Shown one piece after another: positions 5,740 to 35,194 of a DNA stretch of 64,000 nucleotides. Position numbers and translations under genes: made by a program. The stretch spans positions 11,467,501 through 11,531,500 of the forward strand of contig NC_037090.1 in assembly GCF_002994745.2 (NCBI RefSeq), written 5' to 3'. This stretch comes from Rosa chinensis. Taxonomy: Eukaryota; Streptophyta; Magnoliopsida; Rosales; Rosaceae. The notes beneath the pieces were generated by a model that saw nothing but the letters and a program-made list of their open reading frames with translations, ran no database searches and was not told the DNA's origin. Position 1 is the stretch's first letter, and every line of letters begins with the position of its first letter.

Positions 5740-5769
5740 TCTGCTGTATCGGAAGCTAGGCTTTCTCTC

Positions 5770-11237: not shown

Positions 11238-11550
11238 TCTATAATATTATTAAGAGAAGAAGTTTTGTTAGTCAAAATCAAAAATTTTGACAGAAATGAC
11301 CTTAAGAGATTAAAATACTTTAAGAATTAATTAAATCACAAGATCTATTACTACAATTACAAATTATATTTTTATTAATAAAAATAAACTAAATAAATCC
11401 CACAACACACTTTTCTCTCTGTTGGTTTTCTTCCATTATCTTTTCTTTTTTATTTTCTGAAGAAAATAATAATAATAATAATTTTACTGGGTAATAATTT
11501 TACGAAATAATTTTACTTGCACATGCAGAGCATGTGTGGAGGAATGCTAA
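11238..11550 (+). mobile_element. Small Helitron (313 bp) in UGT-B intron
   Basis: The 5' end is TCTATAATATTATTAAGAG at 11238 after host A. The 3' end has a hairpin cacatgc-aga-gcatgtg (about 11520-11537), then CTAA at 11547-11550 before host T. The UGT-A intron is an empty site: ccaatgattgattcgtttccttgc there corresponds to ccaatcgtttttta | tttcctttaa here, with the two flanks joined. Non-autonomous; same 5' end family as the Helitron at 4479. Confidence 0.85.
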
Positions 11551-11984
11551 TTTCCTTTAATTTAACCTATCGCGGTTATGGATTTGTGATAATCAAGTGG
11601 CCATGTTTAACATACACAAAATGAAGTAAAAAAAAAAAACAGAAATATTTTGTTTTTATTAGCATTTACCTATGTTGTCTACATGAAGTACAAAAACGTG
11701 TGTGTTTATTACCACAGCTTTTGTTCTTTTTCTTTTTGAGAAGACACAACTTTTTTTTTTTGGGGTCAAACTAGGAGACAACTTAATTACCACAACTAGG
11801 AGATATGAACATATCACAAAGAAATTGGGGATTATACACATACATACATACTTCAACAATATATTATTTTCTAGACCTCTCACTCATACATGGAAGACTT
11901 AAACTACTATGATACATGGTCGAATTGAGGAGTTTTTTAGGTCATCTATAAATGTGATATAAATAGTTTATTTTCAACACTTAA

Positions 11985-12427
11985 GGACTTGTCCCGTAAC
12001 GTTTTTAAAAAGGATTTTTCAAAAACCGGTTTTGAAAATAAAAACGAGAAAACAAGATTGGATTTTTGAGATCCGAAAATGTGTCCGTTAGCTTATTCCG
12101 AAAACAATTTTCAAAAACGAGAGAAGATTGCAAATAGAGATAAGAGAGAGACCTGAGAAGAAGATAGCAACGTGAGAATATGGAAGAAAAGAGCACATTC
12201 TTTTTTTTTATTTTTTTTTTGGAAAATATATCTCCGTGTTTTCTAAAATATGAGAATGAAAAGGTGAAAACGTCTATTTGTCGTTTTCCTGTTTTACGAG
12301 TAAAATAAAAAATTATTTTCAAAAATTATTTTCTGCATTTTTGAAAACAGACCAACGAACGCATTTTCAAGTCATTTTCATTTTATAAAATAAAAAAGAT
12401 GACTTGAAAACGTTACCAAACGCCATC
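11985..12427. mobile_element. MITE, ~443 bp, in UGT-B intron
   Basis: Imperfect terminal inverted repeats are seen: ggacttgtcccgtaacgttt at the left and aaaacgttaccaaacgcc at the right (reverse complement ggcgtttggtaacgtttt). TTAA occurs on both sides, so a 3-4 bp target duplication is possible. Internal sequence is AT-rich with further inverted phrases. The superfamily is uncertain (PIF/Harbinger-like or Mutator-like). Confidence 0.55.
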
Positions 12428-12590
12428 TTAACATCTCCAGATCTCATTTTCAACGAGGGATATAGTTTATTACAAAAAAGCATAATAGAGTTTCAAAGTC
12501 CAGAGCAAGAGTTGGTCTGAATATTGACTTTATTGTAAACCATAAGTGGGTGGAGAATGTTCCATTACGTGCAAGTTGTTATACAAAAAG

Positions 12591-12759
12591 GGGAGTGTAT
12601 TCCATGCACCGTCAATGCATGGGTACTTGTAATATGAATGGATGTAATTTTTTTGATATTAAAATATATAAAGGAATGGATTAGATGAGTTGATTTTTTT
12701 TTTTAGAGATTAAAATAACCTACAGTAGACTTGCACTGTCGGTGCATACAATCCTCTCC
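12591..12759. mobile_element. MITE, ~169 bp, in UGT-B intron
   Basis: The left end ggagtgtattccatgcaccg and the right end, read as reverse complement ggagaggattgtatgcaccg, form an inverted repeat of about 28 bp. A related half-element (gtcggtgcactaaatactct) lies at 13288-13307. No coding capacity. Confidence 0.6.
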
Positions 12760-14523
12760 ACAAATGTACCACATGTCTCATCGACTAATCCCAACAAGTC
12801 GACCAATAGGCTGACCCACAATCAGCAACTCAATTACTCGACCAAGATCTGTGGCTCCCACACTCGTGTGGGTTGCTACCAAGGGCTAGTTTTCATTTAA
12901 AAGTAATTAATTTATTTAATTTCTTCTTTCCAAAAAAGTCTAAAAAATTCAACAACAAATTTTTGTTTTTTATTTATTTTTATTTATTTTTTGATACTCA
13001 ATCGCTTTCCTTCACTTCATATACCAAAATTTTCAGAAATTTTACAACACTTTATCTTATTCCTCTGCCTAATGATCAAATTTTACATTTAATCTCATTC
13101 ATAAATTTATTAATTATTCTAATATTAAAGTCTAAATAGTATATTGACATTAATTAATCTATGCACGGGGTGCAAATGAATAAGCGGATCTTAGTCGTTG
13201 ATATTATAGGTAATTTTATTTTTTTATAAAAAAATATTATAATTAATGTTATCCAACCATCCATTCTTGTTAGCATAAGTACACGTCGGTGCACTAAATA
13301 CTCTCTTATTTTTCAAATGTGCATCGATAAAATGAAGATAATTGTCAATTTTAGATGAATAGTGAATTGAAAACCACTAATTTGCCCAATACCATTTGAT
13401 CTAGCGGCATAGTCTCTCATTCGTAAGCGAATTCCCCTTAAGTATATGCATTTGCTGCTAGAGTTAGTAGGTATCTTAATAGCAAAGTTTCACATATAAT
13501 TAAACTCGATTAGATTTAATTTTCTTCTTTCTAACTTCCATGGAATGCAATAATGAAAGTAATGCATGTTTTTAATTACTTGGAACAGATGAAGACATGG
13601 ATACGATTGTGAGCCGCATTCCCGAGATGGAAGGCCTTTTGCGACGGAGAGATCTACCTGGTTTTTGTAGAGTACCAACCGACCACCCGATGCTCCAGTT
13701 TTTCATGGAAGAGACCATAGCCATGACTTGAGCTTCTAGTCTCATACTCAACACCTTCGATGACCTCGAATCCTCAGTTCTCTCCCACATCGGCTCTTTG
13801 TTTTCAAAAGTTTACACCATTGGACCATTGCATGCTCTCCTTAAATCTCATATCGTGGACAACAATCTATCTTCCTCCTCCGCCGCTGCAGCCTCTTTGC
13901 GCCAAGAAGACCGTCGTTGCATGATGTGGCTGGACTCCCAAAGTGTTGGGTCTGTTATTTTTGTTAGCTTCGGGAGCTTGTTGAAGCTAACACGTGTCCA
14001 ATTACTAGAGTTTTGGCACAGTTTGGTTAATAGTGGGTTCCCTTTTCTATGGGTCATTTGGTCGGATGTGTTATGGAGTGATGAAGCAGAGCACCTGAGT
14101 TACGTGATCCCGGGGGAGTTGGAGACGGCTACAAAAGAAAGGGGGTTTATAGTGGATTGGGCCCCACAAGAAGAGGTTCTTGCCCATGAAGCTATGGGTG
14201 GGTTTTTGACCCATAGCGGGTGGAATTCAACACTGGAGGCAATGTGGGCTGGAGTCCCAATGCGTTGCTGGCCCCAAATAGGGGATCAACAGGTGAATAG
14301 TAGATGGGTTGGGGAGGTTTGGAAGATTGGGATTGATATGAAGGACACTTGTGATAGATCGACGATCGAGAAGATGATCAAAGCCTTGATGAAAGGTGAA
14401 GAAAGAGATGTGATTTCAAGGTCGGTGGATCGATTTGCTAAATTGGCACGGACTTCTGTTAGTGAAAGTGGCTCTTCGTACCATAACTTGGAAAAACTTA
14501 TTGAAGACCTAAGAAACTTGTGA

Positions 14524-17769: not shown

Positions 17770-18800
17770 TGTAGAGGCATTTTTTATCAGGGTTGTACGA
17801 CATTGAAATTACCATAGCCGAGCCCAAAATCTTGTCCCCTTTATCTGAGTTAGTGAAGACTAGGCCCAGTAAACTTCGAAGGACCAGAAAATCCTAGGAA
17901 GCTTGCTATTGTGTTACTCTCGACAGCTCTTCTCCATGTTCACGGTAGTGAATTAGTGTGCAACTCTAGTAAAGACTTGGCAAGATGTGCATGGCGTGGG
18001 AGCTAGAAAAGCATGAGTTTCAGAAGAAGAGATTCCGGCAATGGTATGATTTCTGGTTTTTTTTTTTTGGGTTAAGGTTGATTGGGAGGAATTGATGGCT
18101 AGGGATTCAGAGATAACGCTTGATCTCTTGCTTGATGTTTTTGGGTTGTTGTGGCTTTTGTCCTTTTAGTGGGAGAGTTGCTTGGGTTGTTTAGTAGTTA
18201 GCTTGTGCCCCCTGTACAGCAACTATAACCATCGAATTATAGAGTGGTGGCTTAGGTCAGCTGGTATTCCAAAAATCTTGCTGCTGTAATCCCAGGAATT
18301 CTGTTGCTGTAATCCCAGGAATCCTGCTGCTGCTGTGACTCCAGGAATTCTGCTACTGTAATCCCAGGAATCAATCGTGGTTCCAAGATTTGCTGCTGGA
18401 AAAAGGGAAGTCAAAGGTAGAGAATTGGTATTTGTATAAAAGGATGTGGTATGGTACTTGAGATGTATGGTTTTTTAAGAAAAATGGTTTGGTGTTGGGT
18501 AAAAGAAGTGTTGTCGTCATTAAGGGTTTTTTGGGCTCTTTCTTCTTCACTTACCCATAATCAGAATTGGGCTGTTGGGCTTGAATTTCGGTCCCCAAGT
18601 CCGAAATTACCAACAAGCCTAAAACTAATAATGGGCCTCATGCATTTCTATTACCTTCCACACCATACCCGTTCTTGCAAACCCCAAATGCCTGAATGTG
18701 GCTGGGCCCCACATGCGTGGCATGATGATTGTCGGTATAATTTGCTTATTGGGCTCGAGAAATGAATTGGGCCTGATAGCTGGATTTTTGGGCATCAACA
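17770..18800 (-). repeat. LTR of the defective element (5' LTR on minus strand)
   Basis: On the minus strand it begins TGTTGATGCCC and ends GCCTCTACA, so it has TG...CA ends. Its distal 350 bp align with 14759-15109 (shared aattaccatagccgagccca and tggctagggattcagag). It also contains the 29-bp minisatellite at 18275-18372. Confidence 0.7.
18275..18372. repeat. Minisatellite, ~29 bp x 3-4
   Basis: Imperfect tandem copies of ctgctgtaatcccaggaatt with short variable joins (tgctgctgctgtgactcc in one unit). Lies inside the LTR of the defective element. Confidence 0.8.
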
Positions 18801-18944
18801 AAGCCGTTGTACTTTTTAATGTTCCATCGGTGAAGTACCGTTGTGGAGTGAAGCGTAAAAAGACAACATTCACCTAGACAACGAAAATATATTTTTTCAG
18901 ACAACGGTGCAGAACCGTTATCTATTTTCGATTTTGTACTAGTG

Positions 18945-20362
18945 GACCTTCTCTTTTATCAGATACCAAAACTACTCCTCTCGTCAGATATTGAAAAACC
19001 AAAATTCTAATACCCTAAGCCTAAAGTGGCAAAGGGGCAATTCTACGTGACTTCGTCTCATCGTATTCACCGGCTTAATTAATTAAACCTTCGAACATAT
19101 GATATGTGTTGTTTAACATGCATAAAGAGCTCGATTTGGGAGAGAGAGTCTTGCGTGGGGCAGCCGTACCATGTGGGGATGCGGTTGTCCAATAAGTGCC
19201 CAGCAGGGGGGTATTTTAGATATTTCATTTTTAAAAAGCAGGAGTAGTTTAGGAGTAAGGAGAAAAATTTTTGGTGTGTGATTGGTCAGGCGCACCATGT
19301 GTCTGATATGCCTGACGTACGCAAGAATTTTTCGATTTGGGATACAAGACCAATCATCCACCAATACTAAATAGTTTACTTGAGCTTACTTGATTGACTT
19401 TAAACATATCATATAATATTTGGTAAACAAATGATGACATAAATGTGGAAATCATTGGCGTCCCTGGAATGGAAGGCCTTCTGCGACATGTAGATTTACC
19501 TGGTTTTTGTGAGGGTAAAACCATCGAGCCACCCTGGTCTTCAATTCGCCATCCACGAAACTCAGACACAAAAACGAGCTTCAGCTCTAATCCTTGACAC
19601 CATTTACAAACTTGATGCTCCGTGTCTATCCCATATGGCAACCATGTTCCCCAAAATTTACACTCTCGGCCCTCTCCTGCATTCTCAAATCGGTGAAGTC
19701 TGGCGATCATTAGCATCACACGACGGTCTTTGGGAGGGGGATCCAAATTGCATGACATGGCTTGACTCTCACCCAACCAAATTGGTTCTTTATGTCAGCT
19801 TCGAAACCCTAGTGATGTTGACATGTACCCAAATCATAAAGTTTTGGTACGGTCTGGTCAACAGTGGTCACCCGTTCATGTTGGTTGTACAGTCTGACAT
19901 TACTTCATGTTTAGATGCAGACCCGATTCCCATGGAGCTTGAAATTGGGACAAAAGAAAGAGGGTACATAGTGAATTGGGTCTCGCAAGACTGCAAGAGA
20001 AAGTCTTGGCTCACAAGTCAATGGGAGGGTTCTTGACCCACAACGGATGGAATTCTACCCTAGAGAGCATTGTAGCAGGAATTCCTATGATTTGTTGGCC
20101 TAATTTAGGGATCATTACATCATTAGCAGAATTGTTTGTGAGAAGTGGAAGATTGGTCTTCGATTGAAAGAAAACTGCGGCAGAAATGAAATTGAAACCA
20201 TGATAAGAATGTTAATGGGATTTAAGATAGGAGAGATTCCCAGCTCAATGGATGCAATTTCAAAAGTGGCTCGTGATAGTGTTCCAAAATTAAGGTGGAT
20301 CTTCAAACCACATCTTGGAGATGGTAATCCAAGACATTAGGAATATGCATGCAAGACCACAT
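18945..20362 (+). pseudogene. UGT-C: UDP-glycosyltransferase pseudogene lacking exon 1
   Basis: 18945-19430 aligns with the intron of UGT-D and 19431-20362 with its exon 2. Exon 1 is missing: the homology starts exactly at the end of a CACTA element. Lesions relative to UGT-D: the splice acceptor AG is AA at 19429-19430. An extra G at 19511 shifts the frame after PGFC. An 8-bp insertion near 19990-19997 shifts it again at the start of the PSPG box. One G is missing near 20108, and four extra bases lie near 20286. PSPG remnants are readable ([20 protein letters not shown], then PMICWPNLG). The sequence stops at 20362, where a Copia LTR begins at the position of the stop codon; the 3' flank resumes at 36277. 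Non-functional. Confidence 0.9.
19141..19332. mobile_element. Mutator-like MITE (192 bp) in UGT-C intron
   Basis: Relative to the UGT-D intron, 192 bp plus one copy of a 9-bp duplication CGATTTGGG (19132-19140 and 19333-19341) have been added. A 9-bp duplication is typical of Mutator-like elements. The ends carry gtcttgcgt and acgcaagaa as a short inverted repeat. No coding capacity. Confidence 0.8.
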
Positions 20363-20840
20363 TGTAAGATCAAATATGGACATAACACATATCATCATAA
20401 AGTAATTGATGATTAGCTTAATATCAATCCTAGTTTAACATGGATACAAACTGTAAATCAATACTTGTAACTTAATGAAGCAGTGTATCTATTCATTAAG
20501 GTAAGTAATCCTATTCTTAGTCTGCAAGAAAGACTACAATGAAGTGTTACATTAAGAATCTAACTAGGAAACCTAAACCGATATGGATAGCTTTAATGGG
20601 AAGCTTCTTGAGAGTTAAGTCTCCTATATATACAGATGAATTGGTCCCTGATTACTACCGACGTTTTGCATATTGTTCTATCCATTGAGAAGCAAGTAGG
20701 TAAGTAACAGAAGACTATATTCAGTGTTCGTGTTTGCAGCTGCATAAGATGGAATCCATGCCAGTGGTTGCTAAAGGTAAGCCTTGATCCCTTTTATGAT
20801 TGTATGCATATGTTGTGAGCATGTATATGGTTATTTAACA
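20363..20840 (+). repeat. Copia 5' LTR
   Basis: 478 bp, TGTAAGATC...TTTAACA. It contains a TATA-like ctatatatac near 20625, a possible promoter. It pairs with 35795-36271. Confidence 0.95.
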
Positions 20841-20842
20841 AT

Positions 20843-20854
20843 TGGTATCAGAGC
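20843..20854 (+). other. Copia primer-binding site
   Basis: TGGTATCAGAGC, complementary to the 3' end of plant initiator methionine tRNA, two bases after the LTR. Confidence 0.9.
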
Positions 20855-20966
20855 ATAGGCTCACAAGTATCAAAATCGTTGAAGGGTTTTGCAAAACAAA
20901 CACAAAAAAAAAAAAAAAAAGGTTTTTGCTTTACGGATCAAGTAACTGGTCAGGTAACTGACCAAG

Positions 20967-23065
20967 TGATAGGCGCATTTTAATGTGATATTTTAAATGT
21001 TAATTCCTCACATTTTGCTTAGTTATTCCTTAACGAATCAATTTTTAACTTAATTTCTATTTTTAGGTACATTGGAGTAGATGAAGAAGAAATGAGTGTT
21101 ACGTCCACAATTACCTAGAAATGATGGAGAAGAATGAAAATGCACTAAAAAGTCAACCTTGAATATTTTCTTACTCCGGCTAGGAGAATCAGAGCCAAGC
21201 AAGGAAGAAGGAGCGGGCACCTGACCAAATGAACTTGAAATGAGCTGAAACTCTGCAGATCCATTCTAGACACCCAAAGGATCATTTCTTATGAAGAGTG
21301 CCAGAGAAAAATATGAGTGGAAGGCCTTCAAACAATTAGCCCAATTCTCTACAGAAGCAAAACCGGAAAACTGGACCTGTAAGAGGTCCAGCAGCATTTT
21401 CGGCCCAACCACATGGATGAAAGCTCTGAAAATTTGTCAGGATGATCTACACTCATAGTGGAACATTTCATATGAAGAAGTCAAAGGCATATAATGAGTT
21501 CTTAGTGGAGAAATAATTGAAGGAATAAAGGGGCAGAAATTCACCTCCAAATCTGCTAACAACCTTTGTCAAACTTGAGGAGGAAAATCAAAGTTGCAAG
21601 CAAGTGGAAAATCTTGAGGAGGAAAATCAAAGTTGCAACTAAGTGGAAAATCTTGAGGAGGAAAATCAAAGTTGCAAGCAAGTGGAAAAACTTGAGGAGG
21701 AAAATCAAAGTTGCAACCAAGTGGAAAAACTTGAGGAGGAAAATCAATTCAAGTTGAACAAGTGATAAATAAGTGGGAAGATATTTTTTACAAATTTGTC
21801 TAACATATCTAGCCCTTCATTTATGTTCATCTCCACCCTCCATTCATCATTTTTTGGGCTATAAATACACTTCTCCTCTCACTCTCATGACATCTTCCTT
21901 CATCCATCTCATCTTCTTTGTCTCTCCATTTCCTCTCCATATTTCTTCATTCTCTAGTTTTCTTGTTCTTCATTTTCAAGCCAAGAGAAAGAGAAGCCAT
22001 GCAATACATCAATTTCCTAACCGCCATCCACCCTTGTGTCGTCCCTAGAAGATTGCTTGCTTTCAAGGATCTTCAAGTTCTTCGTCTCAAGGCTTTATCA
22101 TTCATCTTTCAAGGTGTATTATATCCTTTCTCTTGTTTTCTTTGTTTGATTTTGTAGAACTATGAATTCTATTTAACAAATAATGTTAAGGGCAAAGTTT
22201 AAAGCCCGTTTATATGTTTTGAAATAAAGTTGTGATTTCTATATGTTGATTTTTATGTTGCTTATGTGGGTTTGTTTAATTAAATTTGCATGATAGAAAA
22301 CTTTTGTATTTTAATCTTATGTGGTTGCAAACACTTAGGGTTTTGATATAATTGGTGCTAGGTTTAAGAACATGAAATCGACTTTTCGTTTTGTGTAAAC
22401 TTGAATCAAAGTAGTAAAGGTTTTGTGCAAAGACCGAATTTAATTAAAGAGGATTGCAATTAGGTGGACTTTTCCATACTAAGTTGTACACTTGAGTTGA
22501 TAGCCTTTCTCTATGTCTAATGCGTTGAACATGTCATGATTGACTAGCTTTCTAGGGCTTGATTGCATGTTTGATAGGATTAATCTAGGTGCTTTCGCTT
22601 AGGTTAATTAGCATTGAAAAGTAAAATATGGGAAATCATTTGCTTTCGAATGTTTCACATGATCAACTCCTCTCTCATGACATTTAAAATCAACTATAGG
22701 AATTGTAATTGGATTTCTTGCATATGGATGTGGTTTTGATCTTTGTTCCTTGCGTTCCACCCTTGTATATATGTTTTTACGTTTTCTTTATTTTAATTTT
22801 AATTTTAAGAATCCTAATCCCCCCCCTTTATTTGTGTTTTCTTGTATATATTTATTCTTTATTTTATTTTTGTAAATAATACTTTATTTGTTTATACAAT
22901 TGTATATATTTATATTCTTTATTTTATTTTTGTAAATAATACTTTTCTTTATTTGTTTCACAATGACAGGTGTACCCTCAATCCCCGGAATAGAACGATC
23001 CCTATTTGCTTATACTACTAACGATATTTTCAGGGTTAAATTATGCGCTTCCCAAAAGCGCATCA
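20967..23065 (+). repeat. 5' LTR of the homeobox-carrying element
   Basis: 2,099 bp, TGATAGGCGCATTTT...AAGCGCATCA. Contains a 39-bp minisatellite at about 21576-21743. Nearly identical to 28042-30139. Open frames within (63 and 91 aa) come from the minisatellite and low-complexity sequence and are not genes. Confidence 0.95.
21576..21743. repeat. 39-bp minisatellite in LTR, ~4 units
   Basis: Tandem units of cttgaggaggaaaatcaaag plus ttgcaagcaagtggaaaat, with a/c and t/a variants. Each unit is 13 codons, so it is open on both strands. Duplicated at 28651-28818 in the other LTR. Not seen in the diverged solo LTR at 56786. Confidence 0.9.
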
Positions 23066-23070
23066 ATTTT

Positions 23071-23089
23071 TGGCGCCGTTGCCGGGGAT
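23071..23089 (+). other. Primer-binding site (tRNA-Asp type)
   Basis: TGGCGCCGTTGCCGGGGAT, five bases after the 5' LTR. This type is typical of Athila and related plant Gypsy retrotransposons. Confidence 0.85.
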
Positions 23090-23869
23090 TGAAAAATCAC
23101 TTGCTAAATTGTGTCATTTATTGTATATATTTGTTGTATATAAATTGTTTGAAACTTAGTTTAAATTAACTAGGATATTATTTATATTATTGAACACGAA
23201 TTTTAATTGTAGGTTGTAAATTGAGAGGAATAGGTGAAGTCTCTTTTGTTAATATTGGCCTAAACCCCTTATTGGTACCTAGCTCAGGTCCCTTAAGGTT
23301 GAGGGCGGCCTTTATTAACACTTGTTGAACTGTCTTCACACTTATGAACTTTTTCATCTTAGTAAGTATAGCCTATGTGAAATGGTGTCTAGGAAGGGGA
23401 CAACGTTCATGACGGGTTTTTGAATCCAGAAGTGCTTGCAAATGGGCATAAACCACAATGTGGGAGTAGCTCATGCCAAAATGGATTTTTCCTCTCATGT
23501 TCGCCCTCCCCCACCTGGCCATTTCAGTAAGGTTGCCCAAACGATTTGAAATGGAGTTTGTGTCTAGGCGACTATACTTGGGCCGCACGTTCACTTGATT
23601 TACCGCTTGGAATTTGATTCGATATCAATAATGTTTATAATAAAAGAAATACTTGTGAATACTCTATACGTGTATATTATTTTGTTGTTTCACACTTTAA
23701 ACTTGTAAAAATACTTTTCACGTTTTTTACTCACTTGTGTCTTATGTACAATATACTTGTTAATTATACTTGTAGTTTGTAATTAATAGTTATACTTGTT
23801 TTTATTTTGTATTTCTTTGTTAATTATAGTTACTAACTTTATTTAATGTAGGTACCGTCTGGCTGCAAG

Positions 23870-24090
23870 ACGTAAAATACAAGTGCTACTTGGGAGGCAA
23901 CCCATGCAAATCAGATTTGCTTTCTCTTTCCCTATTTCTTTTTATTTTTCAATTTTTCTCTTTAGTTTTTATTTTAGGATTTGTTTTCGTAAATGTCTTC
24001 TATCTATGCTTACTTATTACATTGCATGCTTTTAATTGATTACATTGAGGATAATGCAATATTTAAGTGTGGGGGAAGAGATTTATATTT
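23870..24090 (+). repeat. Athila-style 3' module, copy 1
   Basis: Contains gctacttgggaggcaaccca, agatttgctttct, ttgaggataatgca and taagtgtgggggaag in the same order as 26042-26270. In Athila-like elements this text normally follows the last ORF. Two copies flank the WUSCHEL-like ORF and the 176-aa ORF. Confidence 0.7.
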
Positions 24091-24269
24091 TTGTCTTTCA
24101 TTTTGAGTCCTATATATATATTTGTCTTTAATTTTTGAGTCCTTTATATAAAAAAAAAATATATAAAAAAAAAAAAAATTTGCATTCATTCAGTCTTATT
24201 AAATTCAGCTATTTACAAAAAAAAAAAATTTAAAAAAAAAAATATATAATAATAATAATAATAATAATA
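24091..24269. other. A/T low-complexity spacer downstream of the homeobox ORF
   Basis: Runs of A, (TA)n and an (ATA)n microsatellite (about 24243-24270) directly after the stop of the antisense ORF. There is no clean poly(T) on plus that would mark a retroposed poly(A) tail. Confidence 0.6.
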
Positions 24270-24869
24270 CTAAGCCATGTCTGCATCTCTGTAGGAGTTG
24301 AGACTGAGCTCAAGGGAAATGTGAGAGCCACCGCCATAACCGCCACCTCCCTCAGAAGTAGTCTTCATGTTGCCCAAGATGTCCTCACCATGCATGGGGA
24401 ATAGTGGAAGGGTTTCAATCTCCTGGTGATATTCTCCTCGTTGTTCCATGATCGATCCATCAGCACCATAGCCGACACGTGACCCAAAGTTTAGATCAAT
24501 GGATCTGTCAGTGGATCTGTCATTACTAGTAGAACCAGTGGAACCAAAATTGAGATCGAGAGATCCACCAACCGGAACGTTCCGAAATTCCTTCAACTTC
24601 TGCCTCTCACGAGCCTTGAGGTTCTGGAACCAAAAGAAGACGTTTTTGTCCTCGATCTGCCCATACTGTTTCAGATGAAGGCAGATCTCTTGAATCTGCA
24701 CTGAAGTTGGGTATTTAAAACCCTTATCATAGTAAAGGCCCTTGAGGATTCTTAGTTGAGGCGGTGTGGGAGCCCACCGGTTATTAGTCCCGGCTGCTTG
24801 GTTGTTTCCTCCATCCTCGATTTGTTGCTGGGTCTGTTGCTCCATTAGTTGCAGAGTTCGTGGTTCCAT
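24270..24869 (-). CDS. WUSCHEL-like homeobox transcription factor inside a retrotransposon
   Basis: Single-exon ORF, 199 aa, ATG at 24869-24867. The homeodomain spans about residues 29-93. It has the WOX-type extended loops, an LYY motif and helix-3 [17 protein letters not shown]; the WFQN Asn is kept, and a Leu stands where WUS proteins usually have His. A WUS box [11 protein letters not shown] begins at residue 153. A C-terminal EAR-like SLELSLNSY lies near residues 185-193. The MEP start, LYY and box sequence point to the WUS clade; known WUS proteins are longer (about 290 aa) and have introns. The middle contains two LNFGS repeats. Expected role: nuclear DNA-binding repressor/activator in stem-cell maintenance. 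The ORF is undamaged and antisense to the retrotransposon, with a TATA box 115 bp upstream. Whether it is expressed is unknown. Confidence 0.85.
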
Positions 24870-24983
24870 GTTGATGAAGAAAGGATTTGAGTTTCGAAAG
24901 AAAGGCTGAAGGGTTGAGAGAGAAAGGCTGGAACTCGGAAGAATTTTCTTTTGGAGTGAATAGTCGCTCCCTCAGAATGCACC

Positions 24984-24991
24984 TATTTATA
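24984..24991 (-). promoter_or_regulatory. TATA box of the antisense homeobox gene
   Basis: Minus-strand TATAAATA, about 115 bp upstream of the ATG, would start transcription near 24955-24960 and leave a ~90-nt pyrimidine-rich 5' UTR. This is a normal plant gene layout. Confidence 0.6.
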
Positions 24992-25089
24992 GAACGAGTG
25001 AGCGGATCTCCACCGTTGGATGGACGATCTCTGAGATTAAATCTACGCGTTGGATTAAAGTCACCCGAAAACACGGAAAAGCTGTTGGC

Positions 25090-25310
25090 TCGTGAAGGAC
25101 ACGTGGGGGAACCAAACTGATCTCGAGGAGCTGTGACAGATAAGCTACAGCCGAAAGCAGGTTTAATTGCCGTGAATCAAGGAAAAGAAAGGACGCGTGG
25201 GGGAATCAAACGAATCTCGAGGATCCATGACAGACAAGCTATAGCCGAAAGCATGCCATAAATCCAGGAAAAGAAAGGAATATTTACACGTGGGGGAGTT
25301 TCTTGGGCCG
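25090..25310. promoter_or_regulatory. Direct repeat with G-box cores upstream of the homeobox gene
   Basis: An imperfect repeat of about 95 bp occurs at ~25092-25165 and ~25190-25263 (gacacgtgggggaacc / gacgcgtgggggaatc; tctcgagga; gacagataagcta / gacagacaagcta; agccgaaagca), and a third gtgggggag start lies near 25292. CACGTG cores lie at ~25099 and ~25289. The position, 220-430 bp upstream of the ATG on minus, fits promoter elements; function is inferred. Confidence 0.5.
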
Positions 25311-25475
25311 TGAACTGTCATAACTCTTCTCCTTCCCGGAGAAGCTTTGTTAAAACTCTGTGCTTGTTGAGATTTCTACCCTATTTTGTGCTTTACATAT
25401 ACATCCTTTTTTGTCTCCTCCAGATTTTACTAAGGTTTGTCTAAGCGTGCAGTTTCAAATTCCTTCTACTTCCTC

Positions 25476-26006
25476 ATGGCTCGAACCAAGGTTACCCCTC
25501 GCAGGGGCGTCAATCAACGCCGTGTTATCTCTTTGGAAGAAGAAGGTCGTCAAGCGGCCACTAGAGCTGGACTTACTCGTCCATGGGACCATCGTCCTAT
25601 CCGTGAGCGTACCCGCAGTCCCCCTCCTTTGCCTCGTCGCTCTCCCAGACTGCATCCCGGAGAGTCTTCTTCCTCACCAGCTGCTCGTGCTCCTCGCCCT
25701 ATGGCCACCCTGGAAAGCTTGTCGGATTCGATTGATGATTTGCGTTCCTCTCTCCGCGATGGTATTATGGTGACAGATTGGAGAGTCAATTGCATGATCG
25801 ATTACATCTCTGAGATGAACTGCTCTTTGATCCGCTGTCACACTGCAATAAACAAGCTTGCTCAGGAAGTCAATAACTTGCAGAGTTATCCTCCTGGGTT
25901 TCCTCGCAAGGACGCTACTGCATCACAACATGAGGACCCGCCTCCGAAGGCTGAAACCAGCAAGAGGGCTGCCACTCGCCCGCATACCGCTCCTCCAAAG
26001 GAGTAA
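25476..26006 (+). CDS. Retrotransposon accessory ORF, 176 aa, function unknown
   Basis: ATG at 25476 (MARTKVTPRRG). The frame is open upstream without an ATG. The N-terminal ~70 residues are basic and Pro/Ser/Arg-rich (PPPLPRRSPRLHPGES). A middle segment, MATLESLSDSIDDLRSSLRD to about NKLAQEVNNL, is amphipathic and could form a coiled coil. The tail is rich in Pro, Thr and Lys. No zinc knuckle or enzyme motif is seen. It sits just before the Athila-style 3' module, so it may be a remnant Gag-like or env-position protein. After Met removal it would start ARTK like histone H3, probably by chance. Confidence 0.5.
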   Translation: MARTKVTPRRGVNQRRVISLEEEGRQAATRAGLTRPWDHRPIRERTRSPPPLPRRSPRLHPGESSSSPAARAPRPMATLESLSDSIDDLRSSLRDGIMVTDWRVNCMIDYISEMNCSLIRCHTAINKLAQEVNNLQSYPPGFPRKDATASQHEDPPPKAETSKRAATRPHTAPPKE

Positions 26007-26041
26007 ATGGAGGTACAAGTCTAGGCTGAAAGACTTTAAAC

Positions 26042-26270
26042 ATTAAGCGCTGCATGGGAGGCAACCCATTTCAACCGTATCTGTGGAGGAGCCATCAAAC
26101 GCAGATTTGCTTTCTTGAACTCTTCCTTCTATTTTATTTTCATGAATTTTAAGTTGTTTTAGGTTTCGTTTTGTTAACTTTCTCTTCTATGCTTGATTTA
26201 TGCTTTGCATGATTTATATTTGTTTATACATTGAGGACAATGCATGAATTAAGTATGGGGGAAGGATTAT
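26042..26270 (+). repeat. Athila-style 3' module, copy 2
   Basis: Parallels 23870-24090: gctgcatgggaggcaaccca, agatttgctttct, ttgaggacaatgca, aagtatgggggaag. It follows the 176-aa ORF by about 35 bp. Confidence 0.7.
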
Positions 26271-28041
26271 TGCTTTATTGTGTTTTTAGTAGTTAGTATA
26301 AAAAAAAAATGAAAAATAGTTGATGTTGGATTGTGTTTTTATTGTGTTTTTAATTGATGTTGTGATACACTAAGGTATATTGGATTAAACATAGTCTTGA
26401 AAAAGGGTAGCTGTTTCAGTCCCATTGCACATCGAGACTCCCTGTTCCCGTACCTAAGTGTTGAAATTAAATTAATTTGTAAAAAAAAAAAAAAACAAAA
26501 AAAAAATGTTGGTTTTAGAGTGTTTTTGTGTGTTTGAGTCTTAGGATGCTCCTAACGTCTAGGATGGACATGTCTCCGAATTCATGGCTGAAGGTTTTCA
26601 CAATCAAAATAGGACTTAATTGAATTCTGTGGTTAATCGACATTGTGATGCTTGTATGAAGATTTGAGATAGGATTGTAACTTGGTTCATTAAGCATGCT
26701 AGGATTAAGTCTAATTCATTTGACCCTAAGTGAGTTGTTGAGCTAAAATACTTTCTTTTCGAGTGCTTATTGATAAATTCAGAATTTCATGGCTGTATAT
26801 GCAAAACCTCATCTTTCTTTGAAAATCCAATGATCATGTGCCATAGATTTTAATGGACTAGAGAATACTAGAACTCGACTGTTGTGACTGTCAAAACTTG
26901 TATGCCATAATATGCACTGATCCTGGATAGGATAGAAGGCATTAGGGTAACCACCATAGCCAAACAAGCATGTGTCCCCAATTGTGCCCGTCGTGGGACT
27001 CCTTAGAATGAACCCCTTTGAGCCTACGTTGAAAACCTTTGTTTCATCACCCTCACTACCCTACCATGAGCTTAGTACAGGATATCTCTACCCTTGTCTT
27101 AAGGACTTAGTAGAGCATGACATAGTATGTAGGGGTGACGATGAAAGACAAGTGTGGGGTGGGGAAAATCCAAGAAAAAAAAAAAAAAAAAAAAAAATTT
27201 GCCTTGAAAAAAAGAAAGAAAGAAAGAAAGAAAGAAAAAGCGGCAAAAGAGAAGAAAAATTGAAAAGAAAACTCTTGGGAAAATGTTGAAGTGTGGTTTT
27301 GGACTTGCAAATTTGTAGAAGGCTCAAAGTTGAAAATTATGCCTTTGTCCATTCCCATGTTGGTTAGAATGAAGGTTTGGCCCAAAACAATGATATTTGG
27401 TCTACAAAAATGATGACATAAGGTGGTCCTTATATGCTCTGCTAGGTCCTTAGGATTTTTTGTATCCTTAATCTTCATTTCGAAAACCCTAGCTTAGCCC
27501 CATTACAACCTGTTTTAAGTGCTGACTTGATCCTTGAGATGGGCAGTCTTTGGTTAGTGGAGTCAGTTACGCAGTCGAGCTTATGGTTTAGGTCCATTTG
27601 TGCACTTAGTCATTTCTTGAGGTCTATAAAAATTCTTCACAAAATGCTTTTATTGATGAAATATGCAAGCTGTTTGTTGCCTTACAATTTGTTCTCTTGC
27701 ATATACTTGAGTGTGAAGCTTTTAAGCATAGCCATTTCTGAGAGAAAAATCGAGAGTATGCCTTGTGAGTTTGGATTGGACTTGTTCGAAACATGCTATC
27801 ATTCACTGTATAACTTAAGTTCTCCATATCTTACTTAGTCATATGAGTGTCACACGTTTATTAACTTTGGAATTATCTATGTGATTTTGATTAAGTGTTT
27901 AACGTGAAAGCCATGAGTTTGGAGTCTCTGAGACAACAGTTAGGGGCAGTAGAGTCATTTACTTACTTTTTGTTGAGTCTTTATTTTGTTTTGTGTTTTG
28001 ATTTTGCTAAGGGACTAGCAAAAGCTAAGTGTGGGGGAATT
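26271..28041. other. Non-coding interior of the homeobox-carrying element
   Basis: No gene is visible in 1.77 kb. It holds A-runs near 26290 and 26480, a 20-bp A-run at about 27175-27196 followed by a (GAAA)n microsatellite to about 27237, and the polypurine tract before the 3' LTR. Open frames of 60-123 aa here are low-complexity. Confidence 0.6.
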
Positions 28042-30139
28042 TGATAGGCGCATTTTAATGTGATATTTTAAATGTTAATTCCTCACATTTTGCTTAGTTA
28101 TTCCTTAACGAATCAATTTTTAACTTAATTTCTATTTTTAGGTACATTGGAGTAGATGAAGAAGAAATGAGTGTTACGTCCATAATTACCTAGAAATGAT
28201 GGAGAAGAATGAAAATGCACTAAAAAGTCAACCTTGAATATTTTCTTACTCCGGCTAGGAGAATCAGAGCCAAGCAAGGAAGAAGGAGCGGGCACCTGAC
28301 CAAATGAACTTGAAATGAGCTGAAACTCTGCAGATCCATTCTAGACACCCAAAGGATCATTTCTTATGAAGAGTGCCAGAGAAAAATATGAGTGGAAGGC
28401 CTTCAAACAATTAGCCCAATTCTCTACAGAAGCAAAACCGGAAAACTGGACCTGTAAGAGGTCCAGCAGCATTTTCGGCCCAACCACATGGATGAAAGCT
28501 CTGAAAATTTGTCAGGATGATCTACACTCATAGTGGAACATTTCATATGAAGAAGTCAAAGGCATATAATGAGTTCTTAGTGGAGAAATAATTGAAGGAA
28601 TAAAGGGGCAGAAATTCACCTCCAAATCTGCTAACAACCTTTGTCAAACTTGAGGAGGAAAATCAAAGTTGCAAGCAAGTGGAAAATCTTGAGGAGGAAA
28701 ATCAAAGTTGCAACTAAGTGGAAAATCTTGAGGAGGAAAATCAAAGTTGCAAGCAAGTGGAAAAACTTGAGGAGGAAAATCAAAGTTGCAACCAAGTGGA
28801 AAAACTTGAGGAGGAAAATCAATTCAAGTTGAACAAGTGATAAATAAGTGGGAAGATATTTTTTACAAATTTGTCTAACATATCTAGCCCTTCATTTATG
28901 TTCATCTCCACCCTCCATTCATCATTTTTTGGGCTATAAATACACTTCTCCTCTCACTCTCATGACATCTTCCTTCATCCATCTCATCTTCTTTGTCTCT
29001 CCATTTCCTCTCCATATTTCTTCATTCTCTAGTTTTCTTGTTCTTCATTTTCAAGCCAAGAGAAAGAGAAGCCATGCAATACATCAATTTCCTAACCGCC
29101 ATCCACCCTTGTGTCGTCCCTAGAAGATTGCTTGCTTTCAAGGATCTTCAAGTTCTTCGTCTCAAGGCTTTATCATTCATCTTTCAAGGTGTATTATATC
29201 CTTTCTCTTGTTTTCTTTGTTTGATTTTGTAGAACTATGAATTCTATTTAACAAATAATGTTAAGGGCAAAGTTTAAAGCCCGTTTATATGTTTTGAAAT
29301 AAAGTTGTGATTTCTATATGTTGATTTTTATGTTGCTTATGTGGGTTTGTTTAATTAAATTTGCATGATAGAAAACTTTTGTATTTTAATCTTATGTGGT
29401 TGCAAACACTTAGGGTTTTGATATAATTGGTGCTAGGTTTAAGAACATGAAATCGACTTTTCGTTTTGTGTAAACTTGAATCAAAGTAGTAAAGGTTTTG
29501 TGCAAAGACCGAATTTAATTAAAGAGGATTGCAATTAGGTGGACTTTTCCATACTAAGTTGTACACTTGAGTTGATAGCCTTTCTCTATGTCTAATGCGT
29601 TGAACATGTCATGATTGACTAGCTTTCTAGGGCTTGATTGCATGTTTGATAGGATTAATCTAGGTGCTTTCGCTTAGGTTAATTAGCATTGAAAAGTAAA
29701 ATATGGGAAATCATTTGCTTTCGAATGTTTCACATGATCAACTCCTCTCTCATGACATTTAAAATCAACTATAGGAATTGTAATTGGATTTCTTGCATAT
29801 GGATGTGGTTTTGATCTTTGTTCCTTGCGTTCCACCCTTGTATATATGTTTTTACGTTTTCTTTATTTTAATTTTAATTTTAAGAATCCTAATCCCCCCC
29901 TTTATTTGTGTTTTCTTGTATATATTTATTCTTTATTTTATTTTTGTAAATAATACTTTATTTGTTTATACAATTGTATATATTTATATTCTTTATTTTA
30001 TTTTTGTAAATAATACTTTTCTTTATTTGTTTCACAATGACAGGTGTACCCTCAATCCCCGGAATAGAACGATCCCTATTTGCTTATACTACTAACGATA
30101 TTTTCAGGGTTAAATTATGCGCTTCCCAAAAGCGCATCA
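28042..30139 (+). repeat. 3' LTR of the homeobox-carrying element
   Basis: 2,098 bp, nearly identical to 20967-23065 (gtccataatt versus gtccacaatt; 7 versus 8 C in one run). Includes the 39-bp minisatellite at 28651-28818. Confidence 0.95.
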
Positions 30140-30144
30140 CCAAG

Positions 30145-31174
30145 TCACTGACCATGTAACTGGTCATGTACCTGATCAAGGTAAGTTACTTAAGTCGATT
30201 GCTGCATCTGGTTAAATATCAAATTCACGCTTCCGCTGTGATTTTTAGCAGCAAATTGGGGAAAAAGCAAAAACAGGTTTTTCTGTGAAATTGATTTCGA
30301 TTCATAGCATGATAATTGAGTTTTTGATTGTGCTCAAGAACACTAGTTGCATTCCCGGCGTGCGTTAGGTTAGAGTAGATGGTGACCGGATGAAATTTAC
30401 AATTTCTTGATTGTTCTGTGGTTTCTTGGAATCGAAACAATTTTGATTGTGCTTGAATATACATGATGAATTGATTGATGATATGGTATTGTATCTGTGA
30501 TTGTGTAAAATTGCATGAAGAACAAAAATCTCCCAGATTTTGTTTACACATTATTAAAATTGACAGATACGAGAGCTTAATTTTCTTACAAGGATGAATC
30601 TGGGTAGAATATAAAGTTAAAAGCTCATGGGTTTTGTGGTTTTCTGTTGGCATAAGTGATTATGATGCACAAAGCATTCTTCATTGATGTTGGCAGAAAA
30701 TAATGATCAGGTAACTGACCATGTAACTGGTCAGGTCACTAATCAAGTAACTGATCGAGTGACAAAACTGAAATTGTGTTTTGTGTTTTAAAACTATGCT
30801 TCAGTTTTATCTTCCAAAGAAGTGGTCAAGTATGGTTTTAGAATACAAAACAGCAATATGCATGCTTGATGAAAATAAATACGGATACTTAGAAATTTTT
30901 CTTCTGTCTAAAGATGTGGATAAATTTCTTTGGATAACTTGTTTTCATTGAATATGGTATATTGATAAAGAACTCCAGGATGTTATGCTTCTGCTCAAAA
31001 GTGTTGCTTAACATTATTTTTTGTTATGGACTGATATGAATGCAAGTATGGATTGTTTAGGTTTTCTGTATGTTCTTGTTTTGAGCTAAATAAAACACAG
31101 AAAACTTAAAATTATTTTCTTTACAAATTGAGAACTCACATGGATTTTTGTTTTGCTCCTTAGGTAACTCCTAC
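30145..31174 (+). other. Copia leader (continued)
   Basis: Untranslated leader between the nested element and gag. It contains clusters of GTAACTGGTCAT/GTCACTGACCAT-type 12-mers at about 30145-30180 and 30709-30762. The same repeats lie at 20938-20966 and inside the ORF at 33211-33480. Confidence 0.7.
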
Positions 31175-32699
31175 ATGAACTTGAACAGTGTCTTGATATT
31201 AACTGGAACCAACTATAGAGCTTGGCTAGATTCTGTAGAGAACTATATGGGAATGCATGAGAATATAGACTATTGCTTTACTGAGGATAAGCCTATAGAG
31301 TTGAATGAAAAGAGCACTAAGAAAGAAACTGACCTTTACAAGAAGTGGCATAGATCCAATAGAATGGCTAAGAACCTCATTCGTACCTCTATGTCCAAGA
31401 CTGTCAGGGGAAGTATAGAAGAACCTGAGCTAGCATCAGATTTTCTGGAACTCATAGGTGCTAAGTTTAAAGAAAATGAAAAGGCAGAAGCAGCTAGACT
31501 AACCAAGGAGTTTCATGATTTGAAGTACATGGGTTCAGGGGGAGTTAGAGAACATATTATGAAGATGATCAATATAAATGGCAGACTCAGGGAGCTCTTG
31601 ATGGGGGTTAGGGATGAGCAGGTAGTGCATTATGCACTTCATTCCTTGCCTAACAGTTTTAGTCATCTTAGGACCAGTTACAACTCTCAAAAGGGAAACT
31701 GGACCTTAGATGAACTTATATCCATATGTGTTGATGAGGAAGCTAGGATCAAGGAAGAAAAAGAACCTGCTACAGCCATAAATCTCATAGAGAAGCCTAA
31801 GAAGAAAAAGCCCCAGAAAAAGCTCAAGCCTACCAAAGCCATAACTAAGAGTTCAACAGCTGCAGTGGCCAAGGAAAACAGGCCATTTAGGTTCAAGTGC
31901 TACTTTTGCAAAAGAGTAGGACACATGAAAAAGGACTGCACTGGCTATAAGAACTGGTTAGCCAAAAATGGTAAGATTTTTTCTAATACAGTTTTTTCTT
32001 TAGAAATTAATCTTATAAATGTTGAACCACAGTCTTGGTGGATAGATTCAGGTTCACCTATTCATATTACTAATTCTTTGCAGGGATTCATAAGGAGGAG
32101 AATCCCAAAAAGTGATGAAGTGAACCTATGTGTAGGCAATGGCATGAGAGTGGCAGTCAAGGCTATTGGAACCTTAAAGCTCGATTTAGGATTAGGAAAA
32201 TTATTAGTTTTGGACAATGTTTTTTATGTACCTTCCATGAGAAGGAATTTGGTTTCAGTTTCTCTTTTAGTAAAATCTTGTTGTAGACTTGTTATGGATA
32301 GTAACGGAATTCTTATTTCTAAAAATTCTGTTCAAATTGGTTATGGTGTTATTATGAACGATTATTTACAGTTAAATTGTTCAATGGCTCAACAAGAAAT
32401 TTTACTTGTTGAAAATAACACAAACAGTACTAGCACTTTAACAGGTGTTAAAAGAACCAAACTAAATGAAAAGTCTTCATTTTTATGGCATAGAAGACTC
32501 GGCCATGTTTCAAAAGAGAGACTGAAAATTTTGGTGAAAAACAACATCCTAAATGAACTTGATTTTTCTGATCTAGCAGCTTGTGTGGAATGTTTTAAGG
32601 GAAAAATAACCAACACAAGAAAGAAAACTGCATATAGAAGCCAAAATTTATTAGAACTCATACACACTGATATATGTGGACCATTTAAATATGTGGGAA
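31175..32699 (+). pseudogene. Copia gag, protease and integrase N-terminus
   Basis: From ATG 31175 (MNLNSVLILTGTNYRAWLDS) the frame encodes a UBN2-type Copia Gag, which packages element RNA. A CCHC zinc knuckle CYFCKRVGHMKKDC lies at 31898-31939. The aspartic protease site WWIDSGSP begins at 32036. The gag-pre-integrase zinc-binding region (LWHRRLGHVS... CVECFKGK) follows, then the first integrase Asp in IHTDICGPF. A frameshift near 32697 breaks the polyprotein just after GPFKY; the next segment continues one frame over. The open frame extends upstream without ATG, so 31175 is chosen by family resemblance. Confidence 0.9.
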
Positions 32700-33212
32700 T
32701 GTGTATTTTATCACATTCATTGATGACTTTTCTAGATACAGTTATATTTATCTACTTTCAGAAAAGGCCCAAGCATTGAAAGCCTTTCAAATCTTTAAGT
32801 TTGAGGTAGAAAATCAACTAGAAAAGAAAATCAAAACAGCAAGGTCAGATAGAGGGGGAGAGTTCTATGGAAAGTACACTGAATCCGGCCAACAAAAGGG
32901 TCCATTTTCCTTGTTTTTGCAAGACAATGGAATTAAAGCTCAATACACAACACCCTATAATCCACAACAGAATGGTGTTGCAGAGAGAAAGAATAAGACT
33001 CTTTTGAACATGGTTAGATGCATGATGTGTACGACTGGTTTACCTAAATTTCTGTGGGGTGAGGCTTTGAAAACTGCAAATTATATTTGCAACAAGACAC
33101 CTAGCAAAGCCATAGAAAACACTGCTTTTGAGCTTTGGTGTGGCAGGAAACCTAGTCTTCATCACTACCATATTTGGGGATGTCATGCAGAAGCTAGGAT
33201 TTATACCTGGTC
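32700..33212 (+). pseudogene. Copia integrase core (frameshifted segment)
   Basis: Continues the integrase in a shifted frame: YFITFIDDFSRYSYIYLL, TARSDRGGEF, then QDNGIKAQYTTPYNPQQNG (second Asp region) and VAERKN (catalytic Glu), ending in WGCHAEARIYTWS. The usual region after this point (ARIYNP..., GYFIGY) is absent, so a deletion or replacement removed the integrase C-terminal part. A second frame change at about 33185-33212 leads into the repeat-coding segment. Confidence 0.85.
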
Positions 33213-33480
33213 ATGAACAAGTAACTGTACCTGGTCAAGTAACTGGTCAAGTGACTGACCATGTCACTGACCAAGTAACTGTCCCTGGTCGAGTAACTGG
33301 CCAAGTAACTGACCATGTCACTGACCAAGTAACTGTCTCTGGTCGAGTAATTGACCATGTCACTGACCAAGTAACTGTCTCTGGTCGAGTAATTGACCAT
33401 GTCACTGACCAAGTAACTATACATGGTCAAGTCACTGACCATGTCACTGACCAAGTAACTGGCCACGTAACTGAACCTCA
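33211..33480 (+). repeat. In-frame 12-bp/18-bp minisatellite in Copia pol
   Basis: Units GTcACTGACCAa (V-T-D-Q/H) and GTAACTGTcccTGGTCga (V-T-V-P-G-R) alternate for about 270 bp, always in multiples of three. Identical 12-mers occur in the untranslated leader. Higher-order 54- to 60-bp duplications are visible. Confidence 0.9.
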
Positions 33481-35194
33481 AAATCCTCCAGTGGCTCAGC
33501 CTAGAAGATCACAGAGAGCAAGAAAACCAACTTATGGGGGGGAAGAGAGTGACTACATTGTTTATCTGCAAGAAGCAGAAATTGAAATGGACTGTGCAGA
33601 GGACAATGATCCAACTACATTTAATCAGGCCATTGAAAGTAGTGAATCTCATCAATGGCAGCTAGCAATGGAAGCAGAAATTAATTCCATGAGTCAAAAT
33701 GCAGTTTGGGAATTAGTTGAACATGACCCCAACCAGAAGCCTATAGGTTGTAAATGGGTTTTCAAAACCAAAAGAGATGCAAATGGCAATGTAGAGAGAC
33801 ATAAAGCAAGATTGGTTGCCAAGGGTTTTACACAGAAGGAGGGCATTGACTTTACTGAGACTTTTTCTCCAGTTTCTACAAAAGACTCGCTTAGGATAAT
33901 CATGGCTTTAGTGGCTTACTTTGATATGGAGCTGCACCAGATGGATGTTAAAACAGCTTTCTTGAATGGTGAACTAGATGAAATGATTTATATGAGGCAG
34001 CCAGAAGGGTTTGTACAAGCTGGAAGTGAAAACTTAGTGTGTAAGTTAAGAAAATCAATTTATGGCCTTAAACAAGCTTCTAGACAGTGGTACAAGAAAT
34101 TTGATTCTGTGATTTCTACTTTTGGATTTATAGAAAATCTTGTTGATGAATGTGTTTATTTAAAGACAGCTGTTGGGAACAATTTTATTTTTCTGGTACT
34201 CTATGTGGATGATATACTTTTGGCTAGCAGTAACATTAAATTGCTTAAAGATACCAAGAGTTTTCTGTCAAGGAATTTTGACATGAAAGACTTAGGAGAA
34301 GCATCCTATGTATTAGGTATTGAGATTAAAAGAGATAGGGCACAGAGACTACTTGGTTTGTCTCAACAGAATTATATTACCAAAGTTTTAAAGAGATTTG
34401 GTATGGAAAAGTGTGCAGTTGGAGAAGTTCCCATGTCCAAAGGAGATAAGTTAACCAAGAAGCAAAGTCCCAATAGTGATGTTGAAAAGGAAAATATGGA
34501 ATCAAAGCCTTATGCCAGACTAGTAGGAAGTCTCATGTATGCACAAGTCTGCACTAGGCCAGACTTGTCTTTTGCAGTAGGGATTTTGTCAAGATTCCAA
34601 TCTAATCCAGGCCATGAACATTGGGTAGCTGGGAAGAAAGTGTTGAGGTACCTGCAAAGAACCAAGGGTTATATGCTAGTTTATAGACAAGTGGAGGATC
34701 TAAAACTCATTGGATTTTCAGACTCGGATTTTGCAGGGAATTATCCGGACTCCAAGAAATCGACTTGTGGATATGTGTTCATGCTTGCAGGAGGTGCTAT
34801 TGCTTGGAAAACCATGAAACAAACACTTGTTTCAACTTCTACTATGCAAGCCGAATTTATTGCAGTATATGAAACTGTGTGTGAAGGACTTTGGATTAGG
34901 AATTTTCTCATGCAGACCAAAGTATTGAGTCACATTGTGGCTGGAACACTTGTGATTTATTGTGACAATGAGGCTGCAGTTTTCTTTAGCAAGAATAGTA
35001 AAAGGTCAAATAATTCTAAACACATTGATCTAAAGTATTACAGTGTTAGAGAAAGAGTAAAGCATGGTGAAATAGCTATTTTGAGTATTGACACAAATTC
35101 ACAGCTAGCAGATCCTTTCACCAAGGCCTTGTCAGTAGCAGCATTCCATAAGCATACAACAAGCATTGGAGTCTTAGCTAATCTAGATGCTTAG
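33213..35194 (+). pseudogene. Copia repeat region, reverse transcriptase and RNase H
   Basis: The segment begins with about 90 residues of VTDQ/VTDH/VTGQ tetrapeptide repeats, then PRRSQRARKPTYGG, the usual basic linker before Copia RT. RT motifs run in order: CKWVFKTKRDANG, ARLVAKGFTQKEGIDF, MDVKTAFLNGEL, IYGLKQASRQWYKKF, and the catalytic YVDDILLASSN. RNase H follows with FSDSDFAGNYPDSKKSTCGY, LVSTSTMQAEF (catalytic acidic residues present) and IYCDNEAA. The stop is at 35192-35194. The RT-RNase H part is fully open; only the upstream frame changes make the element defective. Confidence 0.9.

Follow-up and report, generated by a model that had tools for sequence, protein, structure and literature searches.

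How does an intact homeobox ORF resembling a plant stem-cell regulator come to lie inside a retrotransposon, and does its protein matter to the element that carries it? The question is raised by a locus of Rosa chinensis within a 64,000-nucleotide stretch of contig NC_037090.1 (positions 11,467,501 to 11,531,500 of the forward strand; hereafter the window), for which a first-pass annotation had described a WUSCHEL (WUS)-like gene carried antisense by an LTR element. We put at roughly 0.65 the probability that a young, non-autonomous Rosa LTR element has spread an antisense, WUS-derived ORF and that a formerly maintained protein is the leading role of that ORF. This figure overlaps with those of readings that differ on the role, and hence the likelihoods weighed below do not sum to one.

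Results

The ORF lies within a very young, non-autonomous LTR retrotransposon

A complete LTR element of 9.2 kb (20967-30139) encloses the WUS-like ORF in antisense. Self-comparison of the window revealed a 5′ LTR of 2099 bp with TG...CA ends (20967-23065, plus strand) and a 3′ LTR of 2098 bp (28042-30139, plus strand), which are 99.9% identical and are separated by a C/T difference at 21108, a 1-base gap at 22819 and nothing else. The target-site duplication CCAAG is found on both sides (20962-20966 and 30140-30144). The near-identical LTRs and target duplications of the first-pass annotation are thus borne out, as is its view of the element as very young, given one substitution and one indel between the LTRs. 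Assuming 7e-9 to 1.3e-8 substitutions per site per year, the insertion dates to ~18,000-34,000 years ago, with upper bounds of ~102,000-190,000 years. The element is a very young LTR retrotransposon. The primer-binding site (23071-23089, plus strand) matches the 3′-terminal 19 nt of tRNA-Asp(GTC); ARAGORN recognised the tRNA sequence used for this comparison as tRNA-Asp(gtc). The purine-rich tract AAGTGTGGGGGAATT (28027-28041, plus strand) precedes the 3′ LTR.

The internal 5 kb holds seven frames of at least 100 amino acids. Pfam recognises a homeodomain in one of them and nothing above cut-off in the other six and, because it is silent on these six, gag and pol are not recognisable, in agreement with the earlier description of the ORF as antisense in a gag-pol-less element. 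The element is non-autonomous, coding capacity for gag and pol not being found. Non-chromovirus elements have tRNA-Asp among their primers, according to the available portion of PMC6317226, and in this pol-less element the primer site gives a hint, and only a hint, of the OTA superclade (Athila/Tat) of Ty3/gypsy. At 0.48 for the WUS-like ORF and 0.54 for a second, sense ORF, G + C content exceeds that of the remaining internal region (0.34), a difference that fits an outside origin for both ORFs.

The WUS-bearing element is nested within a Copia element. The insertion site (20930-20966) contains CTGACCAAG repeats belonging to the 5′ part of the Copia element, and similar, in-frame repeats of CTGACCAAGTAA-type units are found in the Copia element at 33189-33497. 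Both LTRs of the WUS-bearing element contain a tandem array with 39-bp spacing (21532-21786 and 28607-28861). An Rfam search at the gathering threshold over 20000-31000 gave no match. A related solo LTR (56786-58999, plus strand), in which the pieces that match the element LTRs are 83-90% alike, is flanked by its own 5-bp duplication, CCCCC (56781-56785 and 59000-59004). This solo LTR is located inside a Gypsy element on the minus strand (46639-59564), in which Pfam recognises RT, RNase H and integrase and which is bounded by repeats that are 95% alike (46639-47145 and 59073-59564). The Gypsy element also harbors ORFs antisense to pol at 48624-50900, three of which were tested and showed no Pfam family above cut-off. 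Elsewhere in the window there is a cluster of UDP-glucosyltransferase gene copies (5740-7603, 10607-14523, 19372-20368 and 39256-41401; pairs 81-89% alike), several of them split into separate frames; Pfam UDPGT was found in all three pieces tested (6578-7600, 13732-14520 and 40466-41398).

The antisense ORF encodes a WUS-like protein

Translation of the minus strand from 24869 to 24270 gives an intronless ORF of 199 codons plus stop, encoding 199 residues without an internal stop. By comparison, when the mononucleotides of the internal region were shuffled 300 times, the longest ATG ORF reached 152 codons (mean 82). Pfam assigns one family, Homeodomain, to the protein (E 3.4e-10, 40 bits vs a cut-off of 22.9) at residues 30-94 (24588-24782, minus strand), in answer to the Pfam check proposed for the homeodomain. 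Its top relative of solved structure is the WUSCHEL homeodomain, 6ry3 (E 1.2e-21). The alignment with 6ry3 is gapless whereas that with STENOFOLIA has one gap, at an extra homeodomain residue that we take to be a mark of WUS. AlphaFold2, using 38 sequences, predicts helices at residues 36-48, 56-69 and 74-96, with block-mean pLDDT values of 89-93 over residues 31-90; outside the homeodomain the prediction is of low confidence (overall mean pLDDT 59.8). All 11 Foldseek matches to the predicted model at E ≤0.001 are WUS or STENOFOLIA homeodomains.

Two further motifs are seen in the translation, the WUS box TLPLFP (residues 153-158; 24396-24413, minus strand) and the EAR-like LxLxL tail LELSL (residues 186-190; 24300-24314, minus strand). 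In the 38-sequence alignment, T153, L154, L156 and P158 of the former and L186, E187, L188 and L190 of the latter are invariant. The ORF therefore has the features of the WOX modern clade: a WOX homeodomain, a TLxLFP-type WUS box and an LxLxL tail. This bears out the earlier reading of a 199-codon intronless ORF with these three elements. WUS boxes and EAR-type tails recruit TOPLESS corepressors. With homeodomain, WUS box and EAR tail combined, the protein may once have been a DNA-binding repressor, although this is less certain.

A divergent promoter separates the WUS-like ORF from a multi-copy sense ORF

The second ORF, of 176 codons, is located on the sense strand (25476-26006, plus strand), and it and the WUS-like ORF face apart across 606 bases. 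Within this region, TATAAAT is found on the minus strand (24991-24985), separated from the WUS-like ATG by 115 bases, in agreement with the TATA box that the first-pass annotation had placed 115 bp upstream. The region also contains a tandem repeat (25095-25279, composed of 25095-25193 and 25189-25279, 80%). CACGTG is found at 25100 within this repeat and at 25287 just outside it; as the flanks that we presume a WUS G-box to have are absent, CACGTG was given no weight as such a site. Self-regulation through WUS sites likewise found no support, as over the whole window TGAATGAA occurs 3 times vs 5.8 expected and TTAATGG 7 times vs 15.7 expected.

Pfam assigns the sense ORF no family above cut-off. 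Its closest cluster, from R. chinensis, has 18 members, and a family alignment search in which the 7990 best-sharing candidates were scored gave at least 9 matches, with the three that are species-named all from Rosa. Immediately 3′ of the sense ORF is the second copy of a module (26006-26268, plus strand), the first copy of which (GGGAGGCAACCCA ... AAGTGTGGGGGAA; 23845-24083, plus strand) matches it in two pieces, at 80% and 73%. Linkage of the two ORFs outside the window would favor spread by elements, yet it is a weak point of the case: P0022, which is WUS-like, and P0131, which corresponds to the sense-ORF start, each come from an 'ena' contig of 2415 bp, the two contigs being equal in length. 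A stretch of the sense ORF is also included in a R. rugosa protein annotated as chloroplastic HSP90-like (P0129), which suggests either the insertion of a related element into an HSP90-like gene or a wrong gene model.

Relatives are numerous in Rosa and adjoin Rosoideae WUS

A protein search with the WUS-like ORF gave 290 matches, the best 120 of which were examined. Among these 120 are 64 Rosa-type rows (61 by source name and 3 by similarity) comprising 375 member sequences, 271 of them in the clusters nearest to the window ORF (P0003-P0026, 24 clusters). A member sequence is an entry in a database rather than a counted locus. R. chinensis is the source of the closest proteins, and the top match shares 97% identity with the window protein. 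All three motifs (WFxN, TLxLFP and LxLSL) are present in 48 of the 64 Rosa-type rows, fragments included, and in 22 of the 24 closest. Among viral contigs, none of six pattern matches was a relative.

A WOX phylogeny had been called for, and we constructed a quick tree, without bootstrap, of 75 rows: 62 Rosa-type rows including the window, after three of fewer than 158 residues were dropped, and 13 WUS-type references chosen from the 56 other listed matches. All Rosa rows fall on one side of a branch with an SH-aLRT of 92, as one group adjoining Fragaria/Argentina WUS among these references; 31 of the 72 inner branches are open and the Rosa branch is not starred. Older, diverse WUS-like Rosa proteins lie outside the core group of the tree. 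In its homeodomain, WUS box and EAR-like tail, and in its position beside Rosoideae WUS, the ORF resembles WUSCHEL and the WOX modern clade, suggesting that the Rosa ORF derives from this host stem-cell regulator. It differs from the Fragaria/Argentina WUS proteins (296-299 residues) in being shorter, at 199 residues, with the protein middle missing, in its DLNF-type repeats and in a more divergent homeodomain. Repeated DLNFGS-like units in the Rosa proteins seem, from the alignment, to have arisen from the GGS-x-x-HNFGS stretch of WUS; six R. rugosa-type rows have 4 such units, and each of P0003-P0026 has 2 or 3. Some Rosa copies look like mosaics; P0022, for example, has a homeodomain of 77% identity to that of the window protein but is 97% and 94% identical downstream.

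The window ORF is intact, not pristine. Two of its homeodomain residues are private: S56, where the other rows most often have P, and V57, where 59 of the 60 filled rows of the Rosa-type set have E. In all 24 closest clusters among the best 120 of 290 matches, residues 56-57 are P-E.

Substitution patterns distinguish close from distant relatives

The most serious rival to a maintained protein is that the element picked up the WUS-like sequence accidentally, its multiplication having other causes, and that the ORF never served it and is intact merely because the copies are young. We regard this as tentative and less probable than our main reading. To bear on it, the one-base-reachable differences from the window ORF were compared to random one-base changes in the same codons, with the mean BLOSUM62 value as the score, 3000 draws and protein rows only. 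For the 24 closest clusters, 89 changes gave a mean of -0.45, with -0.45 expected (P 0.51), and the 25 homeodomain changes gave P 0.45. The closest copies thus look neutral, changing as mutation alone predicts, which is what a passenger would do; this set has fewer changes and hence less power, and the two private residues of the window are counted in every set. Against a passenger, the other 37 Rosa-type rows differ conservatively: 296 changes gave -0.07 vs -0.37 expected, with none of 3000 draws as high, and 97 homeodomain changes gave 0.16 vs -0.33 expected (P 0.0007). For the same rows P was 0.02 at residues 149-199 and 0.16 at residues 95-148. As a yardstick, the 13 WUS references gave 0.16 overall vs -0.39 expected and P 0.26 at residues 149-199; the test is blunt in this last region, because the WUS references do not stand out there.

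Retention of key residues also speaks against a passenger. Of the 62 rows used, W80, F81 and N83 are unchanged in 58, 58 and 59 filled rows, respectively (in P0065, which is among the three short rows dropped, W is replaced by L), and the three motifs persist in most Rosa-type rows, as noted above. These figures come from rows that are related to each other and from protein databases that presumably favor intact genes. Host genes may be present among the 37 distant rows and would then account for the constraint seen in them. The region-by-region variation differs from that of WUS orthologues, and the constraint pattern is therefore not uniform. In eight hand-picked Rosa rows, pairwise differences per site are 0.348 in the homeodomain and 0.237 in the EAR tail, compared to 0.089 and 0.093 in 13 WUS orthologues, and the more variable homeodomains of older Rosa copies favor a passenger; the WUS-box region is alike in the two sets (0.151 vs 0.155). 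In five R. rugosa-type rows the WUS-box region (0.194) is more variable than the homeodomain (0.089). Taken together, the data fit, and do not prove, a protein that was maintained over a longer past and whose copies are now decaying.

The ORF matches a published expansion of rose WOX genes

In the available parts of PMC11405225 (2024), R. chinensis is assigned 381 WOX genes, with 364 in five rose-only clades and 265 in clade V; R. multiflora has 170 WOX genes and R. rugosa 105. The rose loci are found on every one of the seven chromosomes, collinear pairs number 0, and chromosome 2 holds 226 of the 381 R. chinensis genes (PMC11405225). In rooting RNA-seq, 359 of the 364 rose-only members showed next to no expression, a finding that favors a passenger, and the expansion was tentatively credited to genome duplication, with further evidence called for (PMC11405225). 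A search of the main text of that study for 'transpos' gave 0 matches. The rose-only clades I-V are treated there as host genes, and the clade V motif strings, as given in the available parts, are the same as those of the window ORF; the 271 members of the 24 closest clusters (best 120 of 290 matches) come near to clade V's 265. The available text of PMC8213826 assigns 46 R. rugosa genes and 14 R. chinensis genes to a WUS orthogroup that is expanded in R. rugosa; many other expanded groups shown in the same table are of the retroelement type, in keeping with spread by elements. To judge from the 46 vs 14 genes, annotation strongly affects rose WUS/WOX counts.

The window suggests a better cause of the rose-only WOX expansion, namely retrotransposition of an element-borne WUS derivative, and we infer that elements of such kind spread the ORF and so produced the expansion. 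Since near-identical Rosa proteins are numerous and fit the published expansion, the capture seen in the window is probably not a single odd event. The alternative is that tandem or segmental duplications, for the most part on chromosome 2, multiplied WUS-like genes in Rosa and that the LTR element merely took up one copy. We consider this unlikely. The crowding on chromosome 2, seen in the available parts of PMC11405225, differs from what even insertion would predict and is a weak point for spread by elements, and the older, diverse Rosa proteins outside the core group also favor host duplication. The contig count, which is 1 in 63 of the 64 Rosa-type rows, is taken to describe the cluster representative; were it to cover all members, large clusters would be on single chromosomes, favoring local amplification. 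Against host amplification are the distribution of the published loci over seven chromosomes without collinear pairs and the position of the window ORF, between matching LTRs and a target duplication and beside a multi-copy sense ORF. It is a further weak point that element-borne spread rests on a single full element, 20967-30139. The contig-count reading and the uneven annotation counts led us to be cautious about spread by elements and to give host amplification more weight.

Discussion

Our preferred reading, spread of a WUS-derived ORF by a non-autonomous element, would have proceeded as follows. Most likely, an intronless WUS message or gene piece entered the element in antisense and would have kept or gained a promoter. 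The WUS-bearing element would then have multiplied by retrotransposition with the enzymes of another element. Selection may have maintained a repressor protein in the multiplying lineage while each inserted copy decayed neutrally and, by analogy with Grande and Retand elements, the protein may work as their antisense accessory proteins do; both steps are less certain. Given an element-borne gene, an accessory protein is the likeliest single role, short of an even chance, with a passenger a tentative second, an antisense RNA improbable and any other role slightly more improbable still. A poly(A) retrogene origin was also considered and rejected, the A-rich tract beside the ORF being on the wrong strand for the ORF's tail. 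A bolder version of the preferred reading, which we think improbable, holds that the element-encoded WUS-like repressor would act in the meristem, the source of the germ line, and favor expression or transmission of the element, and that its multiplication would have rewired or burdened the WUS circuit of Rosa.

Extra ORFs antisense in LTR elements (Grande gene23, RIRE2 and the TRP28 ORF of Retand) are known in many copies and, for the Grande/Retand type, nuclear localisation, an own promoter (Grande) or predicted DNA binding is reported, according to the available text of PMC7264820 and PMC11963269. Like them, the rose ORF is an extra one, runs antisense within a long internal region and has its own putative promoter. 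However, in the available text of the review of antisense ORFs, no similar host gene was found for theirs, whereas the rose ORF has WUSCHEL as its probable parent, and theirs are located between pol and the 3′ LTR, whereas the rose element is pol-less and its WUS-like ORF is upstream of the sense ORF (PMC7264820). Like maize Bs1, the rose element is an LTR element with host gene sequence; transduced genes are usually in sense and in one or few copies, as the same text describes them, while the rose ORF is antisense and probably in many copies (PMC7264820). An abundant Tat-like Gypsy family of the HapOB rose genome also has an unexpected extra ORF; there, in the available text, it is a class II transposase ORF rather than a homeobox ORF (PMC6786968). 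The main text of PMC6786968 gave 0 matches for WUS, WOX or homeobox.

The same review proposes, for other elements, that antisense transcripts function as RNA (PMC7264820). At the rose locus, RNA from the antisense promoter would pair with element or host WUS transcripts and lead to small-RNA silencing, the protein being secondary. The TATA promoter, placed antisense to the element, is in keeping with this, but the protein-level constraint toward the distant rows is not needed for an RNA role, and we hold such a role to be improbable. Lastly, an assembly or annotation artefact is extremely unlikely: independent protein records contradict it, with near-identical proteins in R. chinensis annotations and related ones in R. 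rugosa and on short contigs elsewhere, and the LTRs and target duplication are clean.

No earlier report of a WUS-bearing rose retrotransposon was found among the matches listed from the open-licence PMC literature. If the preferred reading holds, the rose ORF would be a rare antisense retrotransposon ORF with a known parent, making the role of such ORFs directly testable. It also offers a cause for the published puzzle of hundreds of rose WOX genes without collinear pairs. In virus-infected rose, 32 WOX genes are reported as downregulated, with no statement in the available part of that report on whether they are of the rose-only kind. Rose WOX counts and expression profiles, these 32 genes for example, may partly be a reading of one retrotransposon family.
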